DNA of 26,543 nucleotides from a virus. The position numbers and the translations under genes were made by a program. This document shows positions 44-18,972 of the stretch, piece by piece (position 1 is the first letter of the stretch; each line of letters begins with the position of its first letter). Under the pieces are notes generated by a model. The model saw only the letters and a list, made by a program, of their open reading frames with translations, had not been told where the DNA came from and did no database searches. The stretch lies in IMG/VR virus record IMGVR_UViG_3300035698_002763, positions 1-26,543 of that record. One strand, written 5' to 3'.

Positions 44-1051
44 TTATACCTTCACGTATCTAGCCGGATTCTCCCCAACATTGACCCTGCGTATCTTCTC
101 CTCACACCGCAGTTGCTGAAGAGCTTTCCTGACAGTCTCTATACTGAGAGCTGTGTGCCCGCACAGTTTCTGGATAGTCAAGGTACCATCTACCCCATAG
201 TTAGTCCTCAGGGCATGGTAGACCAACTCCGTTGAGCGAAGGTCCTCCTTGGCTACCAGATAGAGAAGTGGCACAGGCTCACACAGGAAGATATCCAGTG
301 GGCTTATCCTGACCTTGTTCCTATCCTTCCATTGGCTGAGCCTCTTCCTACCGCCAGCTCCCAGGTCCTCAAGTCTGTACCCGCTGTCTACATGGTTAGT
401 CCAGATAGACGAGCCCATTACAGCATCCATGCCATCCTCATGCACGACCCTGCCTCCGAAGTCCTTCTTGGACTTGTGCTCATGGTGTACCAGTATGATA
501 GAGGCATCCTCATACCTGGAGGATATCTGCTTTAGGTTATTGCAGTACTGACTGACTATCTCATCATCCGAAGTAGACCCCTTTACCGACGAGTAAACCG
601 AGTCGATGATAATGGCTTTTGGACAGGGCAGGTGCTTGGAAGCTAAGTCCTCATCTACAATATTGATGAACTCCCTTAATCCCTGTGCTAGGTTCAGCTT
701 CATCTCGGTGACCCACATCTGTTGCAGGTTCTCCAGGTTACAGTCTATCCCTCTAGCCATAGACACTATCCTGTCTATGTTCATGTCAAAGGGACCCTCA
801 GTCTGGCAGTACAGTACCGGTATAGCCTTCCTTACGTCATAGCATAGGAAGTCAGTACCTGAAGCCATACATATAGCCATCTGCAGGGCCAGTACACTCT
901 TCCCTATCCCAGCCTTCCCGATAAGCATGGAATGTTCCCCGGCGTTTAGCACTCCGGTGATGTAGGACTTGTACTCCACCTTAGGCAACTGGCACAACTC
1001 CGACATCCTGAATACCCTGTTCCGCTGGTCCGGAGGAATATTAACCGGCAT
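44..1051 (-). CDS. RepA/AAA_25-like RecA-fold replicative helicase or ATPase
   Basis: A 335-residue P-loop ATPase. Walker A GKAGIGKS lies at about residues 45-52, a conserved Glu in QTEGP at about 85, Walker B AIIIDS ending in Asp150, and a motif 4-like ILVHHEHK at about 186-193. The C-terminal 60 residues look like a winged helix. This is the layout of RepA/AAA_25 hexameric helicase-like proteins, which sit beside DNA polymerase in many phages. I chose the ATG at 1051 because GAGGTG stands four bases before it; an in-frame ATG at 1078 lacks a good site. It overlaps the polymerase stop by 11 bases, which implies coupled translation. The RepA/DnaB-type helicase role is inferred from family and position; a loader or recombinase-like ATPase is the alternative. 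Confidence 0.8.
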   Translation of the reverse strand: MPVNIPPDQRNRVFRMSELCQLPKVEYKSYITGVLNAGEHSMLIGKAGIGKSVLALQMAICMASGTDFLCYDVRKAIPVLYCQTEGPFDMNIDRIVSMARGIDCNLENLQQMWVTEMKLNLAQGLREFINIVDEDLASKHLPCPKAIIIDSVYSSVKGSTSDDEIVSQYCNNLKQISSRYEDASIILVHHEHKSKKDFGGRVVHEDGMDAVMGSSIWTNHVDSGYRLEDLGAGGRKRLSQWKDRNKVRISPLDIFLCEPVPLLYLVAKEDLRSTELVYHALRTNYGVDGTLTIQKLCGHTALSIETVRKALQQLRCEEKIRRVNVGENPARYVKV

Positions 1052-3380
1052 GAGGCACCTCAATCTTCCGCAGGTCATCCCAGTTAGGGCCAGCTTGCAA
1101 GTCTACCGGTATCCTGCAAGTCCTTATAATGCTATCCAGTCCGGTTATCTCTACAGGATACTCGAGGCAGCCTTTTACCAGCCACAGTACATAGTCCTTA
1201 TCCGATGGATGGCACTCTACCATAACCGAGTCGTGTATCTGAAGCATGAGCTTGAACTTACCCTCAGTCTGATAGTTATACAGCTTGAGCAGTCCGTGGT
1301 TCAGTATATCCGATACCGTAGACTGGGGCACATAGGCATATCCCTCCTTCTTCAGGCTCTCATTGAAGGTACCCATGAACAGTCTCTTCCTACCGAATGG
1401 TGTAGTCAGCATGCGTGCCTTCTGCAGCTGGCTGACCGTCTTCATTTGCCAGAGCTTGATACCAGGGTACGTAGCGAAATACGCATTGAGAAGCCGTCTG
1501 GCCTCCGAGAGTGAGATGCCAGCCTGCTTAGCAAATGTAACAGGTCCCATTCCGTAGTTACTTGCATGTACAACTCTCTTCGCCAGCTGGCGTTGCTTAT
1601 CAGTAACACCCGACTCCCGAACTCTGAATATCGCTGAAGCATTTCTCCTGTGAATGTCGCCACCATCTTCGAACATCCGAATAAGATTGTCTTCTCCAGC
1701 AAGATACGCAACAACCCTTGCCTCAGCCTGAGACAGGTCTCCAGCCACAAATATATCCTCACCATCTGGTATGAAGAGTCTCCTTGCAATTCCTTTAGGC
1801 ACGTTCTGGAGATTTGTCCCAGTCCCATGTACGCTTTCACGAGAGCTGAGTCTACCCGTTTCAGTTCCCGATATGAGATAGGTGGTTCGGATGCGTCCGT
1901 CTTTGTCGATGGTCGCTTCGAGGTATGTGGAAAGCACTTTCCTAGCTGCCCTGATTTCAAGGACAAGGTCAAACTCTCGTCTGGGGTTCGTCCTCGCAAG
2001 CTCCCTGATGGCTTCTTCGTCCGCCGTAACCGTGTTCCCATGTCCCTGTCTCCTTTTATACTTCGGCTTAAATCCAATGTCTTCGTATAACCACTTCTGC
2101 ATCTGCTTCGGACTTGAGACATTTAGCTCATGTCCGACAAGAGCATCCAGTTCTCCCTGTAACTCTATTATCTTCTCCTTATACTCCTTGATAGCCAGCT
2201 TCCTTATTGGAAGGTCCAGCTTCACACCACGTCTGGCCATATCCATCAGAGGCTCGATAAGCTGGTGTATATAGGTGCGATACAACTCCCACATCCCCAG
2301 GTCATTCAACTCCTTCTCTATCTCGAAAGCTACCTCGAAGGTACAACACGCATCCAGGCAGTTATACTGCCAGAACTTATCCCTGTTATCCTCTCTTATC
2401 CAGTCCTTGTAGTAAGGTTGGTCTGTATATATAGATGTGAGGAAGTCCAGTCCCTTCGGAAGTTCCGGATATGCTAGATGCCCCGCTATCATGGTATCCA
2501 TCCACAGGTTCCTGACGTGGATGTCCATAAGGTCGAGAAGCATTGTCATGTCATACTGTGCGTTCTGGGCTATCTTCTGGTTCGGACCTTCGAGCACTTC
2601 CTTTATCCTGAGCCATATCTCAAGCTCCTGCTCCCGAGACCACAGGCTACCCGATGCCCTATACCAGAATGGTATACAGATAGCCCAGTAGGGGGAGTCG
2701 GATATTCCAATACAGTTTATCTGATTGGTTTCTGTCTCTATGTCGAACGCTACGAAAGGACTGGACTTGAGCCTTGTCAGTTCCTCCATTATCTCATTAT
2801 AGGAAGGGTTAATTAGTAGTACCCTCTCTTTGAGCTTGACTTCCGGAAATCCTGCCTGCTTTTCCGCCCTCTGCATATCAAACAGGGCCACCGGACGGTA
2901 CTCCCAGGTACGAAGCACTGCCGCCGGATGGTACGTAGCAAGGCACTTGACTTGCAGTCCATTGGGCATGGTGCAAGCCAGTATGGACCCACGCCATTTG
3001 GTGATTGAGGCTTTACCGATTATAGCTTTGAGGGGTTCATTACCGAGGCATACTACGAGGTTAGGCCGTATCTTCATTATCTCCTCGAGGACTTCAGCTA
3101 TTCCGGCCTTGAGTATAGCTGTCTGTGTCTTGCCCTCATAGAAGCTACCGAAGTCATTGCCCTTTGGTCTGTACTTTACTAGATTAGTAAGATAGCACTC
3201 ATCCCTGTTTAGCCCACTCTCGACGAGTAACTCATCGAGTATCCGTCCCGCTGCTCCCACGAAAGGCCGTTCCAGCTCTTCTTCCTTGGACCCTGGAGCC
3301 TCTCCTATAAGGACTATCCTGGCATCAGATGGCCCTTCCGCAGGTACTAGCTTACTCCCCCACCTTTTCTCCTCCGGCAT
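1041..3380 (-). CDS. Uracil-DNA glycosylase domain fused to family A DNA polymerase with 3'-5' exonuclease
   Basis: A 779-residue replicative polymerase. Residues 1-175 are a family 4/5-type UDG-like domain, with GEAPG at 26-30, a PFVG segment at 39-42 and HPAA at 151-154. Residues 205-355 are a proofreading exonuclease with all acidic residues: DIE at 213-215, Asp277, and Tyr339/Asp343. Polymerase motif A has Asp548, motif B has Arg597, Lys601 and Tyr609-Gly610, and motif C is HDS at 716-718. There is no 5' nuclease domain. UDG-like N-termini on family A polymerases are known from SPO1-type phages. Two oddities: the O-helix residue equivalent to Taq Phe667 is His605, and the N-terminal CxxC expected of an Fe-S family 4 UDG is missing. 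It overlaps its neighbours on both sides. Confidence 0.95.
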   Translation of the reverse strand: MPEEKRWGSKLVPAEGPSDARIVLIGEAPGSKEEELERPFVGAAGRILDELLVESGLNRDECYLTNLVKYRPKGNDFGSFYEGKTQTAILKAGIAEVLEEIMKIRPNLVVCLGNEPLKAIIGKASITKWRGSILACTMPNGLQVKCLATYHPAAVLRTWEYRPVALFDMQRAEKQAGFPEVKLKERVLLINPSYNEIMEELTRLKSSPFVAFDIETETNQINCIGISDSPYWAICIPFWYRASGSLWSREQELEIWLRIKEVLEGPNQKIAQNAQYDMTMLLDLMDIHVRNLWMDTMIAGHLAYPELPKGLDFLTSIYTDQPYYKDWIREDNRDKFWQYNCLDACCTFEVAFEIEKELNDLGMWELYRTYIHQLIEPLMDMARRGVKLDLPIRKLAIKEYKEKIIELQGELDALVGHELNVSSPKQMQKWLYEDIGFKPKYKRRQGHGNTVTADEEAIRELARTNPRREFDLVLEIRAARKVLSTYLEATIDKDGRIRTTYLISGTETGRLSSRESVHGTGTNLQNVPKGIARRLFIPDGEDIFVAGDLSQAEARVVAYLAGEDNLIRMFEDGGDIHRRNASAIFRVRESGVTDKQRQLAKRVVHASNYGMGPVTFAKQAGISLSEARRLLNAYFATYPGIKLWQMKTVSQLQKARMLTTPFGRKRLFMGTFNESLKKEGYAYVPQSTVSDILNHGLLKLYNYQTEGKFKLMLQIHDSVMVECHPSDKDYVLWLVKGCLEYPVEITGLDSIIRTCRIPVDLQAGPNWDDLRKIEVPHAG

Positions 3381-10563: not shown

Positions 10564-11457
10564 TTAATATCCCCAGCACTTATTTACGTTATCCCAGTAC
10601 ACCTCGCTAGTCCTTACCACTTCCCGACCACCACGCACTGAGCCACGTTTACCCTTAGAATTGTAGTACTTGGAATAGCTAGTCAACCTACTAGTATCCC
10701 AGTATCTAACACTCACAGGATTAACCTGCTTATGCTCTACCTCGACGGTATTCCGGATTATCTTACCGTGTACCAACCTGATACACAGTATGTTATCATC
10801 ATTCCAGTAATACCCTTTACAAGACCAGCCCTCAGTGAGCCCTGACTCTTTACAGGCAGTTTCGAATATATCCCGTGTACTACAGAATACCAGCAAGTCC
10901 AGCTCCGTATGATAATTCAGGAATATAGGATTCCCGTAATTCCGCCATAGCCACATTCTGAGCTTACGTGTATCCAGCATGGCACAAGCTATATTGCCTT
11001 CCGCCTCTTTATAGACTGACTGTATCCCAGCTATCCGTCGAGGAGCACGTTCAATAATTCTGAGTAAAACTTCGCTATCGCACTCGCTATAACAAGGATA
11101 CTCCGCCCTGAGACTGTCATAATTGGATATCACTCCATTATGTATAAACTGGAGTGTCCTAGACTTGAAGGGGTGATTATTCCTGTTATCCTCAGGCTTT
11201 CCATGTGTAGCCCAACGGTTATGCCCGATTATCATATAAGGCCTGTCCCTTTCTATCCTTTCAAACTCAGGCCTCATGACAAACTCACTAGCAGTTTCAC
11301 CATACTTGAAGTATCGCTCATGCGTACCGTCACTGTACGCAAAGCCCGTAGCGTGTCTACCACGTATTTCAGTAGCCACAGCTAGGGCCTTGTATAGCTG
11401 ATACTTCTTAGCATAGTTAGACTTCTTTCCTGTTGTAAAGCCATATATTCCACACAT
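10564..11457 (-). CDS. Class II glutamine amidotransferase (Ntn-hydrolase glutaminase)
   Basis: 297 residues. Starts MCGIYG, so removal of Met exposes the nucleophile Cys2. Further GlmS/PurF-type landmarks: RGRHATG at 32-38, GHNRWATHG at 78-86, FIHNGVISN at 104-112 and CDSEVLL at 126-132. This domain hydrolyses glutamine to release ammonia. There is no sugar isomerase or phosphoribosyltransferase domain; the C-terminal 110 residues are a basic extension. The ATG shares one base with the amidoligase stop (TAATG), so the two are made together. Known family logic: a stand-alone GAT-II supplies nitrogen to a partner ligase, here the adjacent amidoligase. Confidence 0.92.
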   Translation of the reverse strand: MCGIYGFTTGKKSNYAKKYQLYKALAVATEIRGRHATGFAYSDGTHERYFKYGETASEFVMRPEFERIERDRPYMIIGHNRWATHGKPEDNRNNHPFKSRTLQFIHNGVISNYDSLRAEYPCYSECDSEVLLRIIERAPRRIAGIQSVYKEAEGNIACAMLDTRKLRMWLWRNYGNPIFLNYHTELDLLVFCSTRDIFETACKESGLTEGWSCKGYYWNDDNILCIRLVHGKIIRNTVEVEHKQVNPVSVRYWDTSRLTSYSKYYNSKGKRGSVRGGREVVRTSEVYWDNVNKCWGY

Positions 11458-14404: not shown

Positions 14405-15094
14405 ATGGAAGATACTCTAAGACAAGGCCAGTTCACAGAAGACCTGATAGGTCAGCTCGGCGGAGACGACGTCCTGAAGTTCCACGAGATACTAAATCCA
14501 CACGACTTCATCTTCAAGTACTGCTACACCCTCGACCCACACGATGAGCTGAACGCCGTCAAACTCATGCCGGACCATAGATACCTCCATGTCCTTGTCG
14601 ACGAGTGGCTAGCCTCCAAACAACTCCTGATAGTCAAGTCCCGTCAGATGATGGTCACCTGGCTCATGTGCTCCCTACACCTATGGGACTGCATGATACA
14701 CCATGGACGTATAGCCTTCTTAGTTTCCAAGAATGAGAATGACGCCAACTACTCCCGTGAGCTATCCCTGCTATCCCGTGTAGACTTCATATACGACAAG
14801 CTCCCACCCCACATCCGTAAGATGAGCTACCGAATCAAGACCCTGAAACCAGCCTGCTTCAAGTTCCCAAAGATGGACTCCGCTATCTATGGCATGTCCC
14901 AGGACTCCGATGCTCTCAGACAATACACAGCTACCTCAGTCCTCTGGGACGAGATGGCTTTCCACGAGCACGCATACTCGGCCTATGCTGCCGTTAAACC
15001 CACTCTCATGGGCGGTGGTCGCCTGTGTGGAGTATCTACCCCAAACGGTAAGAAGAACCTGTTCTATGACCTGGTAACCAACACCAAGAAGTAG
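14405..15094 (+). CDS. terL: Large terminase, N-terminal ATPase part (split gene)
   Basis: 229 residues from the ATG at 14405 (an in-frame GTG at 14375 is less likely). It has a degenerate Walker A (LLIVKSRQMMVTW; Lys78 and Arg80 present, but the usual Gly-Lys pair before Ser/Thr is missing), Walker B VLWDE with Asp182/Glu183, and the coupling motif STPNG at 211-215. It stops at TAG 15 residues after STPNG, inside the ATPase domain, where a normal large terminase continues for about 70 residues to the nuclease. The continuation is found 411 bases downstream at 15506. It translocates DNA into the prohead in complex with the portal. Confidence 0.85.
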   Translation: MEDTLRQGQFTEDLIGQLGGDDVLKFHEILNPHDFIFKYCYTLDPHDELNAVKLMPDHRYLHVLVDEWLASKQLLIVKSRQMMVTWLMCSLHLWDCMIHHGRIAFLVSKNENDANYSRELSLLSRVDFIYDKLPPHIRKMSYRIKTLKPACFKFPKMDSAIYGMSQDSDALRQYTATSVLWDEMAFHEHAYSAYAAVKPTLMGGGRLCGVSTPNGKKNLFYDLVTNTKK

Positions 15095-15112
15095 GACTGG
15101 GAGGAGAAGACG

Positions 15113-15388
15113 ATGGAAGATGTAAAGGTTAAGATGGACCCGAAGCAGGACATATTGTATAAGGCAGCATGCGAGCGTCAGCGTAAGTACTGGACAGACA
15201 AGTTACCTACCCTGGCCGATGAGCAGATAGTTATACTCATGGAGTCTATAGCTCAGGTCACAAACCTCGTGACAGCCTTGGACATGTCAGACGGTATCCG
15301 TAGCCAAGTACCGTTCCGCTCCAAGCTCGGCAACTCCATGCGTTTGGTCCTTGAACTACTGACAGCACCTGAACCCCCAAAGGAGTAG
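15113..15388 (+). CDS. Small protein inserted between the two terminase parts, 91 aa
   Basis: Has its own GGGAGG site before the ATG. The product is helical, with ILYKAACERQRKYW, DEQIVILMESIAQVTNLV and LGNSMRLVLELL segments and an acidic, Pro-rich end. I recognise no family and no HNH, GIY-YIG or LAGLIDADG motif, so it does not look like a homing endonuclease. Codon use resembles the neighbours. Confidence 0.6.
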   Translation: MEDVKVKMDPKQDILYKAACERQRKYWTDKLPTLADEQIVILMESIAQVTNLVTALDMSDGIRSQVPFRSKLGNSMRLVLELLTAPEPPKE

Positions 15389-15390
15389 CC

Positions 15391-15516
15391 ATGTCTGCAT
15401 ACAAATTATTGATGTACGCTAAAGACGGTGCCAGTTGGTTACTAGACCTGAAGGACACCCCTGACACCCCAATAGAAGAACTACTAGCCTGTTTCTGGAG
15501 CCAATATGGGACGTGA
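15391..15516 (+). CDS. Second small protein within the terminase gap, 41 aa
   Basis: AAAGGAG lies five bases before the ATG. The 41-residue product is acidic (DLKDTPDTPIEELL) with aromatic ends. Its stop overlaps the start of the terminase nuclease part by 11 bases, in another frame, so translation of that part may depend on it. No family known. Confidence 0.5.
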   Translation: MSAYKLLMYAKDGASWLLDLKDTPDTPIEELLACFWSQYGT

Positions 15517-16342
15517 TTACACGCCAATAGATAAAGGAATAAGTAAACTTGGACAGGACAATGGATTTACAATCGTACGTCTACACTACTCCGCTGACCC
15601 CGTCAAGGACGATGTCTGGATTAAGCGAGAGCGTGCTGCATATCCTTACGCTGAACTATGGCAGCAGGAAATGGAACTTGACTTCATCTCTACCGCTGGC
15701 AAGAGGGTGTATCCTGAGTTCTCACTCGAGCGGAATGTTACTGAACTGAAACGTCAACCCTTCAACGAGATATGGAGAGGATGGGACTTTGGCTATGGCC
15801 ACCCTGCAGTCGTCTGGACACAGCGTACCTATGAAGGACGCTTCCATGTCCTGGCCTGCCTGATGGGCACTGACCGCACAATTCAGTCCTTTGCCAAGGA
15901 GGTTATAGATGTCGGAGAGAAGATGTTCCCCGGTGCAAAGTATAAGGATGCTGGTGACCCGGCTTGCCGTCAGCATAATGACAAGAGTGAGCAGACGACA
16001 GCAGACATTCTCAGAGTCATATACGGAATCCGGATGCAGTCAAAGCCTGCCCGTGTTGCCGACGGTGTCCGCCTCGTACGGACCTTGCTCACACCACGAC
16101 CTGATGGCTTCATGCGAATGAAGATAGACAAGTCCTGTGAACTCGTGGTAGACGGATTCCTTGGGGGCTACATCCGTGATGATGATGACGACCCCGTGAA
16201 GGACAACTACTACGACCACGTGATGGACGCACTTCGCTACGTAGCCGTAATCCTATTTGACATACGCACAGGAGACGCAATGAAACCCTTTCGGGCATGG
16301 GCCCCGAAGCGTCCTACCGCCTCTCCCGTGACAGGATATTAG
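15506..16342 (+). CDS. terL: Large terminase, C-terminal part with RNase H-like nuclease
   Basis: 278 residues. The first 60 (NGFTIVRLHYSADP..., then AYPYAELWQQEMELDF) match the end of a TerL ATPase domain, and the rest is the nuclease: GWDFG with Asp94, KDAGD with Asp148/Asp151, and YYDHVMDALRY with Asp237/Asp241. It cuts concatemers into genome units. A TGGAG site lies five bases before the ATG, so it can be translated as a separate chain; the frame stays open upstream to 15488. Two chains acting together, or joining at the RNA level, are both possible. Confidence 0.88.
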   Translation: MGRDYTPIDKGISKLGQDNGFTIVRLHYSADPVKDDVWIKRERAAYPYAELWQQEMELDFISTAGKRVYPEFSLERNVTELKRQPFNEIWRGWDFGYGHPAVVWTQRTYEGRFHVLACLMGTDRTIQSFAKEVIDVGEKMFPGAKYKDAGDPACRQHNDKSEQTTADILRVIYGIRMQSKPARVADGVRLVRTLLTPRPDGFMRMKIDKSCELVVDGFLGGYIRDDDDDPVKDNYYDHVMDALRYVAVILFDIRTGDAMKPFRAWAPKRPTASPVTGY

Positions 16343-16533: not shown

Positions 16534-16730
16534 GCAGAAAAGACATAGCTAATAAGGTAAACAGTGCCTTCGGGCGTAATATGGCTGCTTACTCCCGTGG
16601 TGAGGTCAAGCCTGTGGCCAAAGACCACACTAAAAAGACAGTATCCGACAGGCTTTACAAGGCCTCCAAGCTGGAAGCCATGAAGGAAGAGAGGAAACAT
16701 GTCAAAGCTGACAAGCACTCCCTCCGTTAA
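16530..16730 (+). CDS. Hypothetical basic protein, 66 aa
   Basis: Lys/Arg-rich throughout with a helical second half (DRLYKASKLEAMKEERKHVKAD). GGAGG lies about ten bases before the ATG. It overlaps the previous gene by four bases and the portal by 32. Position suggests a packaging or head role; sequence does not prove one. Confidence 0.6.
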   Translation: MSRKDIANKVNSAFGRNMAAYSRGEVKPVAKDHTKKTVSDRLYKASKLEAMKEERKHVKADKHSLR

Positions 16731-18972
16731 GTCCATGAACGATGCTCTGAAAGAGGAGCGTGGACGTGTCCAGGAATTGATGTACAATGACAAGCTGGGC
16801 GAGATGCCTAAGAAGATACTCACCCGCCGTATCCTGGAAGACGTGAAGGCCGATGAGGGAGCCCGTAAAGAGTTCATGGACATCCGTCAGGAGATACTCG
16901 AGCTCTATGAAGGCAAGAAGAAGCCCAAGTCCGACCCCTTCCCAGGCTGTGCCAATATCCAGACCATGCTCACAGCCATGGTAGCCGAGCTTCTGCACTC
17001 CAAACTCTTCCCTATAGCCTACAACGAGGACCTGACCTATTGGGTCCCTGTTGAATCTACCGATGTAGAGCAGTCCGATGGCGTTTCCAAGTTCATGAAG
17101 TGGGATGTACGCTCCAACAAGCTGGCTGACTTTGTAGACGACTACGTCCATAACATGGTACTCGAGGGCACCACAGTTTCCAAGACCTACTGGGACTCCG
17201 AGTTCAAGTGGGTCCAACGCCGCATAATCAAGCCTGAGAGCATAATGAAGAAAGTACAGTCTAAGTTCAATAAGCTCTTGGGTAATGAAGCCGAGATAGA
17301 ACTAGACGATAAGGCCTATGAGTTAAAGTATGAGTACAAGAAGTTCGAGTTCGTCAAGACAGAGCTCCTACCGCTCGAAGACGTAGGCTTCCCATGTTGG
17401 TCAGTACCCGGTTCCAATGAGGACCAACTTCCCCACATCTGGCATCGTACCCGTCCCTATCTCCGTGACCTGAAAACTAAGGCCAGACTAGGCTATTATG
17501 ACAACGTGGACAAGGTAGCTAAGGACACCGAGACCAGAATGATAACCGAAGGCCAGCTCCAGGTAGCCCGTGCCGACGCTGAAGGCACCGAATTTATAGT
17601 AAATAAGGAAGTGAAGCTGGAAGGTTACCCTCTAGCCGTAATAGAGTGGTACGGTAAGGTCGATATCCCCAGTGAAGGTCCCATGGAGATGATAGTCTGG
17701 GTAGAAGCCAAGACCCAGACCTTCCTAGGTATGATGCCACTTGTCAAAGTCTCCCGAATATGCAAGCGTCCCTTTGTTATAGGCCAGTTTATCCGTCGAG
17801 CCCATAGACTATACGGTAAAACAGTCCTAGACATGATAAAAGAGCTGAATAAGGAGGCAGATACCATCCATGACCAAAGACTCGATATCGGTACTATGGC
17901 TATTGTGCCTCCTGGCGTATATCGTGCTGCGTCAGGGACAGAGGCTGAGCAGATAAAGCTCCAACCGGGCATCATGACCCCCGTTGATGATGTCAATGAC
18001 GTCAAATGGCTCTCTGTACCCAACAACGTGCTGGTCTCCTTCCAGGAAGAACGTATGTTGATGGAACTTGTCGAGAAGATTTCCTCCGTCGGCTCCTACC
18101 AATCCGGTCAAGAGTCCGATATTAACCGTACACGTGCAACAGCCAGAGGGACACTGGCAATTATAGCCCAATCCGACCAGCGTTTCCAAGTGCTTGGTAA
18201 GCGGATTCAAGGTCCCCTGGCTCGAATACTCCTCAAGCGGCTTAGTCTGTACCAACAGAACATCCCGCCTGGGTTAGAAAATAGAGTCCTCGGTGAGGAC
18301 GGCAAGAAGATATTCCCTATCGGCGTCTCCGTCGAGGACCTAGCCGGTAACTTTGACGTAGTCCAGGGAATGGACACTGCCGGTGGCTCCAAGATAGTCA
18401 AGAAAGAGCAGGATGTTCAGCTCTTTCAGATGATGATGGCTTCACCCTTAGTCCAACAGAACCCCACCGGTATGTGGGAACTACACAACAACGTCCTGAT
18501 AGACTACGGTATCATAGACCCCGAACGTATCATAGGCCCACGTCCAGTCCAGGCTCAGCAAATCAAGGACCAGGCTGACCTTATCCGTAAGGAGATAACC
18601 CTGATACGTGAAGGCAACATGACCAAGACAGAAATGGGTGCAGACCCAATGACAATCCTTCAGGCACTTATGGCCTATAAGGTCAGTTCCGAAGGAAAGA
18701 CCCTGGAGCCTGAGAAAGTGGCCCTCCTTGACGCAAGGATAGCCAATCTCCGTCTTGAGCTCCTAAACAAGACCGTTGAGGCCCAGACAATGGGACAAGT
18801 GGCGGGAGGGATGCAGGATGCAAGAACGCAATTTGAAGGAGCTGGAGTGGGACTTCCTTCAGCACCCGGTATGGCACAAGCTCCAGGAGCGGCTCAAGCT
18901 CCAATGCCGGGACAGAACCAAGAAGTCCCAGGAGCTGCTCAAACAGGGCCAGTACCACCAGTCGGTGTATGA
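16699..18972 (+). CDS. Portal protein
   Basis: 757 residues, the size of P22-like or large podovirus/siphovirus portals. Landmarks: DPFPGCANIQTMLTAMVAELLHSKLFP at about 80-105 (the conserved 'pFPGasN...' portal region, with Ala/Met-rich helix), the NTK/WDSEFKWVQ region, a central wing, and the long helix-rich segment around GKTVLDMIKELNKEADTIHDQRL at about 380-400. The last 60 residues are Ala/Pro/Gly/Gln-rich, and their bases also encode part of another gene in the +1 frame. The portal is the dodecameric vertex ring through which the terminase pumps DNA. GAGAGG precedes the ATG. Confidence 0.9.
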   Translation: MSKLTSTPSVKSMNDALKEERGRVQELMYNDKLGEMPKKILTRRILEDVKADEGARKEFMDIRQEILELYEGKKKPKSDPFPGCANIQTMLTAMVAELLHSKLFPIAYNEDLTYWVPVESTDVEQSDGVSKFMKWDVRSNKLADFVDDYVHNMVLEGTTVSKTYWDSEFKWVQRRIIKPESIMKKVQSKFNKLLGNEAEIELDDKAYELKYEYKKFEFVKTELLPLEDVGFPCWSVPGSNEDQLPHIWHRTRPYLRDLKTKARLGYYDNVDKVAKDTETRMITEGQLQVARADAEGTEFIVNKEVKLEGYPLAVIEWYGKVDIPSEGPMEMIVWVEAKTQTFLGMMPLVKVSRICKRPFVIGQFIRRAHRLYGKTVLDMIKELNKEADTIHDQRLDIGTMAIVPPGVYRAASGTEAEQIKLQPGIMTPVDDVNDVKWLSVPNNVLVSFQEERMLMELVEKISSVGSYQSGQESDINRTRATARGTLAIIAQSDQRFQVLGKRIQGPLARILLKRLSLYQQNIPPGLENRVLGEDGKKIFPIGVSVEDLAGNFDVVQGMDTAGGSKIVKKEQDVQLFQMMMASPLVQQNPTGMWELHNNVLIDYGIIDPERIIGPRPVQAQQIKDQADLIRKEITLIREGNMTKTEMGADPMTILQALMAYKVSSEGKTLEPEKVALLDARIANLRLELLNKTVEAQTMGQVAGGMQDARTQFEGAGVGLPSAPGMAQAPGAAQAPMPGQNQEVPGAAQTGPVPPVGV

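Follow-up and report, generated by a model that had tools for sequence, protein, structure and literature searches.

The large terminase (TerL) of this virus and of a large group of uncultivated relatives is probably an old two-chain enzyme, encoded by two genes and reassembled non-covalently, with the genes that lie between the halves as passengers; we put the probability of this reading at about 0.85. To our knowledge, phages studied to date have a single-chain TerL in their packaging motor. The window, by which we mean the whole stretch of DNA analyzed, is a 26.5-kb virus record (26,543 nucleotides) in which the two terL halves lie 411 bases apart. The two genes, their conserved motifs and the downstream portal gene are as follows:

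14405..15094, plus strand: terL-A, TerL ATPase core (T4-type subdomain I), 229 aa; phrog_2, E 1.7e-9
14636..14659, plus strand: deviant Walker A motif of terL-A, K78-SRQMMVT; K78, S79, R80 and Q81 invariant in 31 split relatives
14936..14953, plus strand: Walker B region of terL-A, D182 and E183; both invariant in 31 relatives
15035..15046, plus strand: coupling motif of terL-A, STPN (S211-N214), conserved across 31 relatives; S211 nearly invariant, 15 residues ahead of the chain end
15506..16342, plus strand: terL-B, remaining ATPase domain, hinge and nuclease, 278 aa; phrog_10250, E 9e-11, and phrog_2, E 2.8e-10
15506..15565, plus strand: N-terminal extension of terL-B (...DKGISKLGQDNGF); missing from short-loop intact TerLs when C-chain starts are compared with intact proteins
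15785..15787, plus strand: nuclease aspartate D94 of terL-B (RGWDFG); invariant in 32 relatives
15956..15958, plus strand: nuclease aspartate D151 of terL-B (GDPA); at least 90% conserved in 32 relatives
16226..16228, plus strand: nuclease aspartate D241 of terL-B (HVMDALRY); at least 90% conserved in 32 relatives
16699..18972, plus strand: portal gene, downstream context; SU10_portal, E 5.5e-26

A profile of 31 relatives of the N-terminal half matches T4 gp17 (E 6e-25), and a profile of the C-terminal half matches the D6E large terminase (E 5e-16), both far above chance. H238 is nearly invariant among 32 chain B sequences, and capsid genes are also found downstream of the terL halves and the portal gene. 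Homology, catalytic residues and genomic context together identify the gene pair as a TerL, one predicted to be made as two polypeptides and not as one. As the original prediction had it, the ATPase chain ends 15 residues past the coupling motif, the reading frame closing with VSTPNGKKNLFYDLVTNTKK and a stop codon at 15094 (in a longer view, ...CGVSTPNGKKNLFYDLVTNTKK), and the second half restarts 411 bases on with a ribosome site of its own, at an ATG at 15506 preceded by GGAG, with a product that begins MGRDYTPIDKGISKLGQDNGFTIVRLHYSADP. We rejected a recoding of TAG at the terL-A stop, since TAG ends 8 of the 27 window genes and the N-half stops across the split group comprise 17 TGA, 14 TAA and 7 TAG. 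Elsewhere in the window, the minus strand encodes a 779-aa protein with uracil-DNA glycosylase and family A DNA polymerase domains (1041-3380; UDG, E 1.9e-27; DNA_pol_A, E 1e-68) and a class II glutamine amidotransferase-like protein (10564-11457; GATase_6, E 3.5e-16).

Alignment with intact TerLs, a check that had been proposed with the original prediction, defined the junction as a loop of about five residues. The intact relative L145 reads through the joint as STPNGPLGVFYNLIHDNSGRFSVNRIHY, whereas in the split relative L012 chain A stops at STPNGKRNLFYKLVHDVNE and chain B restarts at MEKPVLLCKGLHKYRNENGFLVMRLHY; this comparison places the cut between the helix that follows the coupling motif and the next strand, in what is a surface loop of about five residues in intact relatives. 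At its start, chain B has gained approximately 6-25 residues, which in many members carry a G[LIVM] motif followed by N-x-x-NGF. An AlphaFold model of chain A (pLDDT 89.5) matches T4 gp17 with a VIA Z of 22, in an alignment that extends to gp17 residue 305. In the model of chain B (pLDDT 85.8), the nuclease starts near residue 64 and matches gp17 from residue 361, with VIA Z scores of 21 to D6E and 19 to P22. Given these fold matches, the first 60 residues of chain B should provide the hinge and the portion of the ATPase domain that chain A lacks. In T4 gp17, the coupling motif sits where subdomains I and II meet (PMC3012670), so the terL split falls at that junction, contrary to the earlier view that the break is not at a domain boundary. 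A mosaic origin, with a T4-like ATPase and a D6E/P22-like nuclease, is not tied to the split, as intact relatives pair the two alike.

Between the two halves, the window contains the following features:

15095..15505, plus strand: spacer of 411 bases between the halves; no intron model, RNA fold no better than shuffles (z 0.40), no counterpart in relatives
15113..15388, plus strand: 91-aa passenger gene; strong Shine-Dalgarno GGGAGGAG, no homologue found
15391..15516, plus strand: 41-aa passenger ORF, weaker; AAAGGAG upstream

Both small frames had been described as well-formed genes. This holds for the 91-aa frame, which has a strong Shine-Dalgarno and uses codons much as the late genes do (+0.37 bits per codon; z 5.0 relative to shuffles), and less well for the 41-aa frame, which has a codon score of z 2.3 and overlaps the terL-B start by 11 bases. 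The 91-aa protein had no match in Pfam, PHROGs, viral contigs, phage records or the relatives fetched, and the 41-aa protein none in Pfam, PHROGs or the relatives fetched. The small ORFs of the window also lack a nuclease motif in Pfam and PHROGs searches, as expected from the earlier reading that no homing-endonuclease motif is present, and the same is true of homing-endonuclease or mobile signatures in all spacer ORFs inspected, those of relatives mostly by reading alone. A near-perfect 13-base direct repeat with one mismatch (15464-15476 and 15519-15531) is shared by the end of the 41-aa ORF and the start of terL-B and may be due to chance. An inverted repeat (15071-15082 and 15434-15445) was set aside, being by our estimate at about chance level for 700 bases.

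The spacer genes tested in relatives encode a C5 methylase, a glycosyltransferase, a zinc-ribbon-like protein and unknown proteins, and the relatives' spacer ORFs are mostly unlike one another. A zinc-finger-like protein of 120-166 aa lies between the halves in six members of one clade (L024, L026, L028, L030, L031 and G001), and the recurrence of this family within a clade suggests that part of the spacer has been inherited over long times. The original prediction had offered a new kind of genetic element as one option; a spacer that differs between lineages, can be missing and is without a mobile or homing signature argues against it. The 91- and 41-aa genes are best read as lineage-specific passengers at a position that other lineages fill differently or leave empty.

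Wider sequence searches, together with profile searches of translated frames, yielded 54 dereplicated split sequences, the window included, all cut alike at one structural joint. The hunt for relatives suggested with the original prediction thus recovered the same split both with varied spacers and without one. In the first relative, G001, the N-half is 46% identical to that of the window, and a DNA methylase comes after an ATPase chain that ends at the matching position; the record has a 127-base terminal repeat, and when it is read as a circle the N-half is followed about 3 kb downstream by the C-half, across a spacer holding the C5 methylase and several small genes. Among the nearest relatives of the window, the halves abut (L016) or are separated by 295 bases (L066) or 1058 bases (L018), and in other relatives the spacer ranges from 0.14 to 4 kb with varying gene content. 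L012 and L013 have N-half DNA that is approximately 90% identical and spacers that are different. The C-half starts inside the N-half stop, through a 4-base ATGA overlap, in ten tree members, and eight others form a single clade (100/100) with swapped order, B upstream of A; in one of these (L108), the C-half is followed by two small genes and then the N-half. One split case (L141) sits in an acidobacterial genome bin, and one further candidate (L045) was excluded for a disrupted N-half frame, likely an assembly error. Overall, the split is independent of the intervening genes and of gene order. To say that the window's terL is broken by its two small genes, as the original prediction did, is therefore misleading: the split is present without them in L016.

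These relatives bear directly on a further explanation, that terL is a dying gene into which two small genes have recently inserted, or else an artifact of faulty sequencing. The spacer genes have no known relatives, as such an event might leave them. The same split nevertheless recurs in dozens of independent contigs and samples, with both halves constrained and provided with ribosome sites, and this explanation, to which we give next to no weight, is already refuted by the relatives.

A second explanation is a self-splicing intron in terL that carries free ORFs, with the exons joined in the mRNA as in the ICP1 and Jug phages. Introns are known in terL (PMC10448857, PMC12363816), the 411-base spacer is divisible by three, and terL-A, terL-B and the 91-aa ORF all share one reading frame. 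The intron models proposed as a check gave no Rfam match at the locus up to E 10, in searches that recovered the group I controls T4 td (3e-8) and nrdB (6e-7). Both controls score below the Rfam gathering threshold, so a default search is not informative here and only permissive searches are. Seven spacer-bearing relatives were likewise negative at E 0.1, in a search that covered more sequence and was somewhat less sensitive. Moreover, each half has its own start, about ten relatives have ATGA overlaps into which no intron could fit, and the swapped order rules out cis-splicing in the relatives that show it. RNA splicing, another option of the original prediction, is thus highly unlikely.

Swapped order would be tolerated if split introns or split inteins brought the halves together in trans, and inteins do occur in this terminase family. 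Against this, chain A ends 5-20 residues past its fold without an intein N-part, the start of chain B (approximately 6-25 residues) lacks an HN-C/S/T junction, and we found no intron half in the window; we consider joining in trans very unlikely. A fused TerL could also still be made by programmed frameshifting or stop readthrough, and slippage is possible at the ATGA overlaps of some relatives. That the window holds no simple frameshift had been correctly recognized, as a 411-base spacer with several stops separates the halves. Such a distance makes a fused product impossible, as do the kilobase spacers and swapped order of relatives, and we regard this route as extremely unlikely.

Judged from their sequences, the two chains evolve under strong constraint and retain every catalytic residue, with dN/dS between 0.02 and 0.12 for both halves in comparisons where synonymous change was unsaturated. 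A phrog_2 search of nine related records, one of them circular, found no TerL beyond the halves, although the search was not exhaustive, as one record with known halves gave no match and most records are fragments. Inteins at active-site motifs are expected only in translated, essential proteins. Chain A of L023 (2399-3979) contains a LAGLIDADG-type intein just ahead of its Walker B acids, and an intein lies at the nuclease GDPA motif in chain B of L032 (3247-5208); their position inside active-site motifs fits translated, essential chains. By eye, two further C-halves (L176:2921-4897 and L177:4399-7296) have intein-like in-frame insertions, two of them in L177, that start with Cys and end with HN-Cys. 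Intein or LAGLIDADG insertions are seen in intact TerLs as well, near the last nuclease Asp in L106 (1558-3783) and within the ATPase in L111 (86-2590).

We reconstructed the history of the split in a final tree of concatenated halves with 54 split and 27 intact rows. On one side of a supported branch (95/89) are 20 short-loop intact TerLs; the 61 rows on the other side comprise the 54 split sequences and seven intact TerLs nested at three places (L102; L181, L189 and L197; L186, L194 and L198). With seven intact TerLs inside the split group, the split must have been reversed or have arisen more than once, and well-supported branches in this larger tree force at least two changes; a smaller tree was compatible with one clade for all split rows (AU p 0.36). 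L102 and the L186 group have a linker of 25-40 residues that ends in ...EGVDVWRNKKNGFVVVQVHYTAD or ...DGLYGYQNQKGMFLVALHYTAD and is similar to the N-terminus of chain B in split relatives, such as IKGLKTWVNEKNGFTVAMLHYTAD in L178. L102 (1055-2938), L186, L194 and L198 are therefore candidate re-fusions. The economical reading of these sequences would be that terL split early and was later re-fused on more than one occasion, retaining the chain B extension as a linker. Alternatively, a long-loop ancestor may have been split repeatedly, and several of the branches are long; we make no claim of a single origin. A different arrangement is seen in L138 (Pectobacterium phage CBB), where an ATPase-only TerL-like ORF (951-1697, E 1.3e-35) lies directly upstream of a full-length TerL (1636-3333) and overlaps it, both being annotated as terminase large subunit.

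In the two-chain model, chain A would be the nucleotide-binding core, or "engine" (subdomain I), and chain B would contribute the subdomain II part of the ATPase domain (the "transmission") together with the hinge and an RNase H-fold domain for nuclease activity and translocation. The two chains would fold together, with a strand and helices of B completing the ATPase domain, and would form the usual ring at the portal as subunits of an otherwise ordinary packaging motor. Instead, the chains could work apart, with A pumping and B acting as a free nuclease that is no stable part of the motor, and the genes are indeed independent, with up to 2-4 kb between them. This division of labor is very unlikely, as A alone is without part of the ATPase domain, B retains ATPase-domain strands and helices ahead of its nuclease, and A and B diverge in parallel (r = 0.87, Mantel p 2e-4, a correlation that shared ancestry alone also gives). 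Reassembly of two chains, which the original prediction had listed among its options, is the one favored by a split that is conserved, constrained and phylogenetically old and that includes a swapped-order clade; the reassembly itself we infer. Three observations count against the two-chain reading, namely the loss of translocation on splitting T4 gp17 at its linker, albeit at another site (PMC3012670), the seven intact TerLs nested in the split group and the shared frame of the halves in the window, as with an in-frame intron. More speculatively, and with considerable doubt, the enzyme might be an obligate two-protein ring in which A and B are separable, B or an alternative B is exchanged as the motor changes between cutting and pumping, and genes are acquired at the joint.

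A two-chain TerL would suggest that the motor can do without a covalent connection between its nucleotide-binding core and its remaining parts. How ATP hydrolysis is coupled to the DNA-gripping domain, a long-standing question, becomes open to experiment with two natural pieces that can be expressed separately; the swapped-order clade, and intact relatives that have a B-like linker, provide natural controls. TerL is also widely treated as a marker that tailed phages universally carry as a single chain, a rule from which the split group departs, and annotation pipelines will miss or mislabel a two-gene TerL that is cut inside the ATPase.

Among known systems, the herpesvirus UL15 terminase gene lies in two parts with other genes between them, which mRNA splicing joins; its two-part layout is like that of the split group, and its splicing is unlike it. 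The terminase nucleases of D6E, P22 and SPP1 share the fold of chain B (VIA Z 16-21) and, unlike chain B, are part of a single-chain TerL. T4 gp17 shares the ATPase-core homology of chain A, the coupling motif and the nuclease fold, again in a single chain. When gp17 was split artificially at its linker, translocation was abolished (PMC3012670); that site differs from the one here, lying at a later linker, whereas the natural cut is at the subdomain I/II junction. In the literature searched, which covered few subscription papers and is thus weak negative evidence, we found no description of a two-chain TerL, only spliced cases. Of these, the terL genes of ICP1 and Jug phages have introns whose splicing is shown by RNA reads (PMC10448857, PMC12363816). 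Like the window, they have terL divided among at least two ORFs that other sequence separates; unlike them, no intron was detected here, and the halves in the split group can overlap, lie kilobases apart or be swapped. A parallel in organization comes from an enzyme unrelated to TerL, the minimal DNA polymerase III of jumbo phages, an essential enzyme that likewise occurs as two standalone proteins and is proposed to reassemble (PMC7824862).
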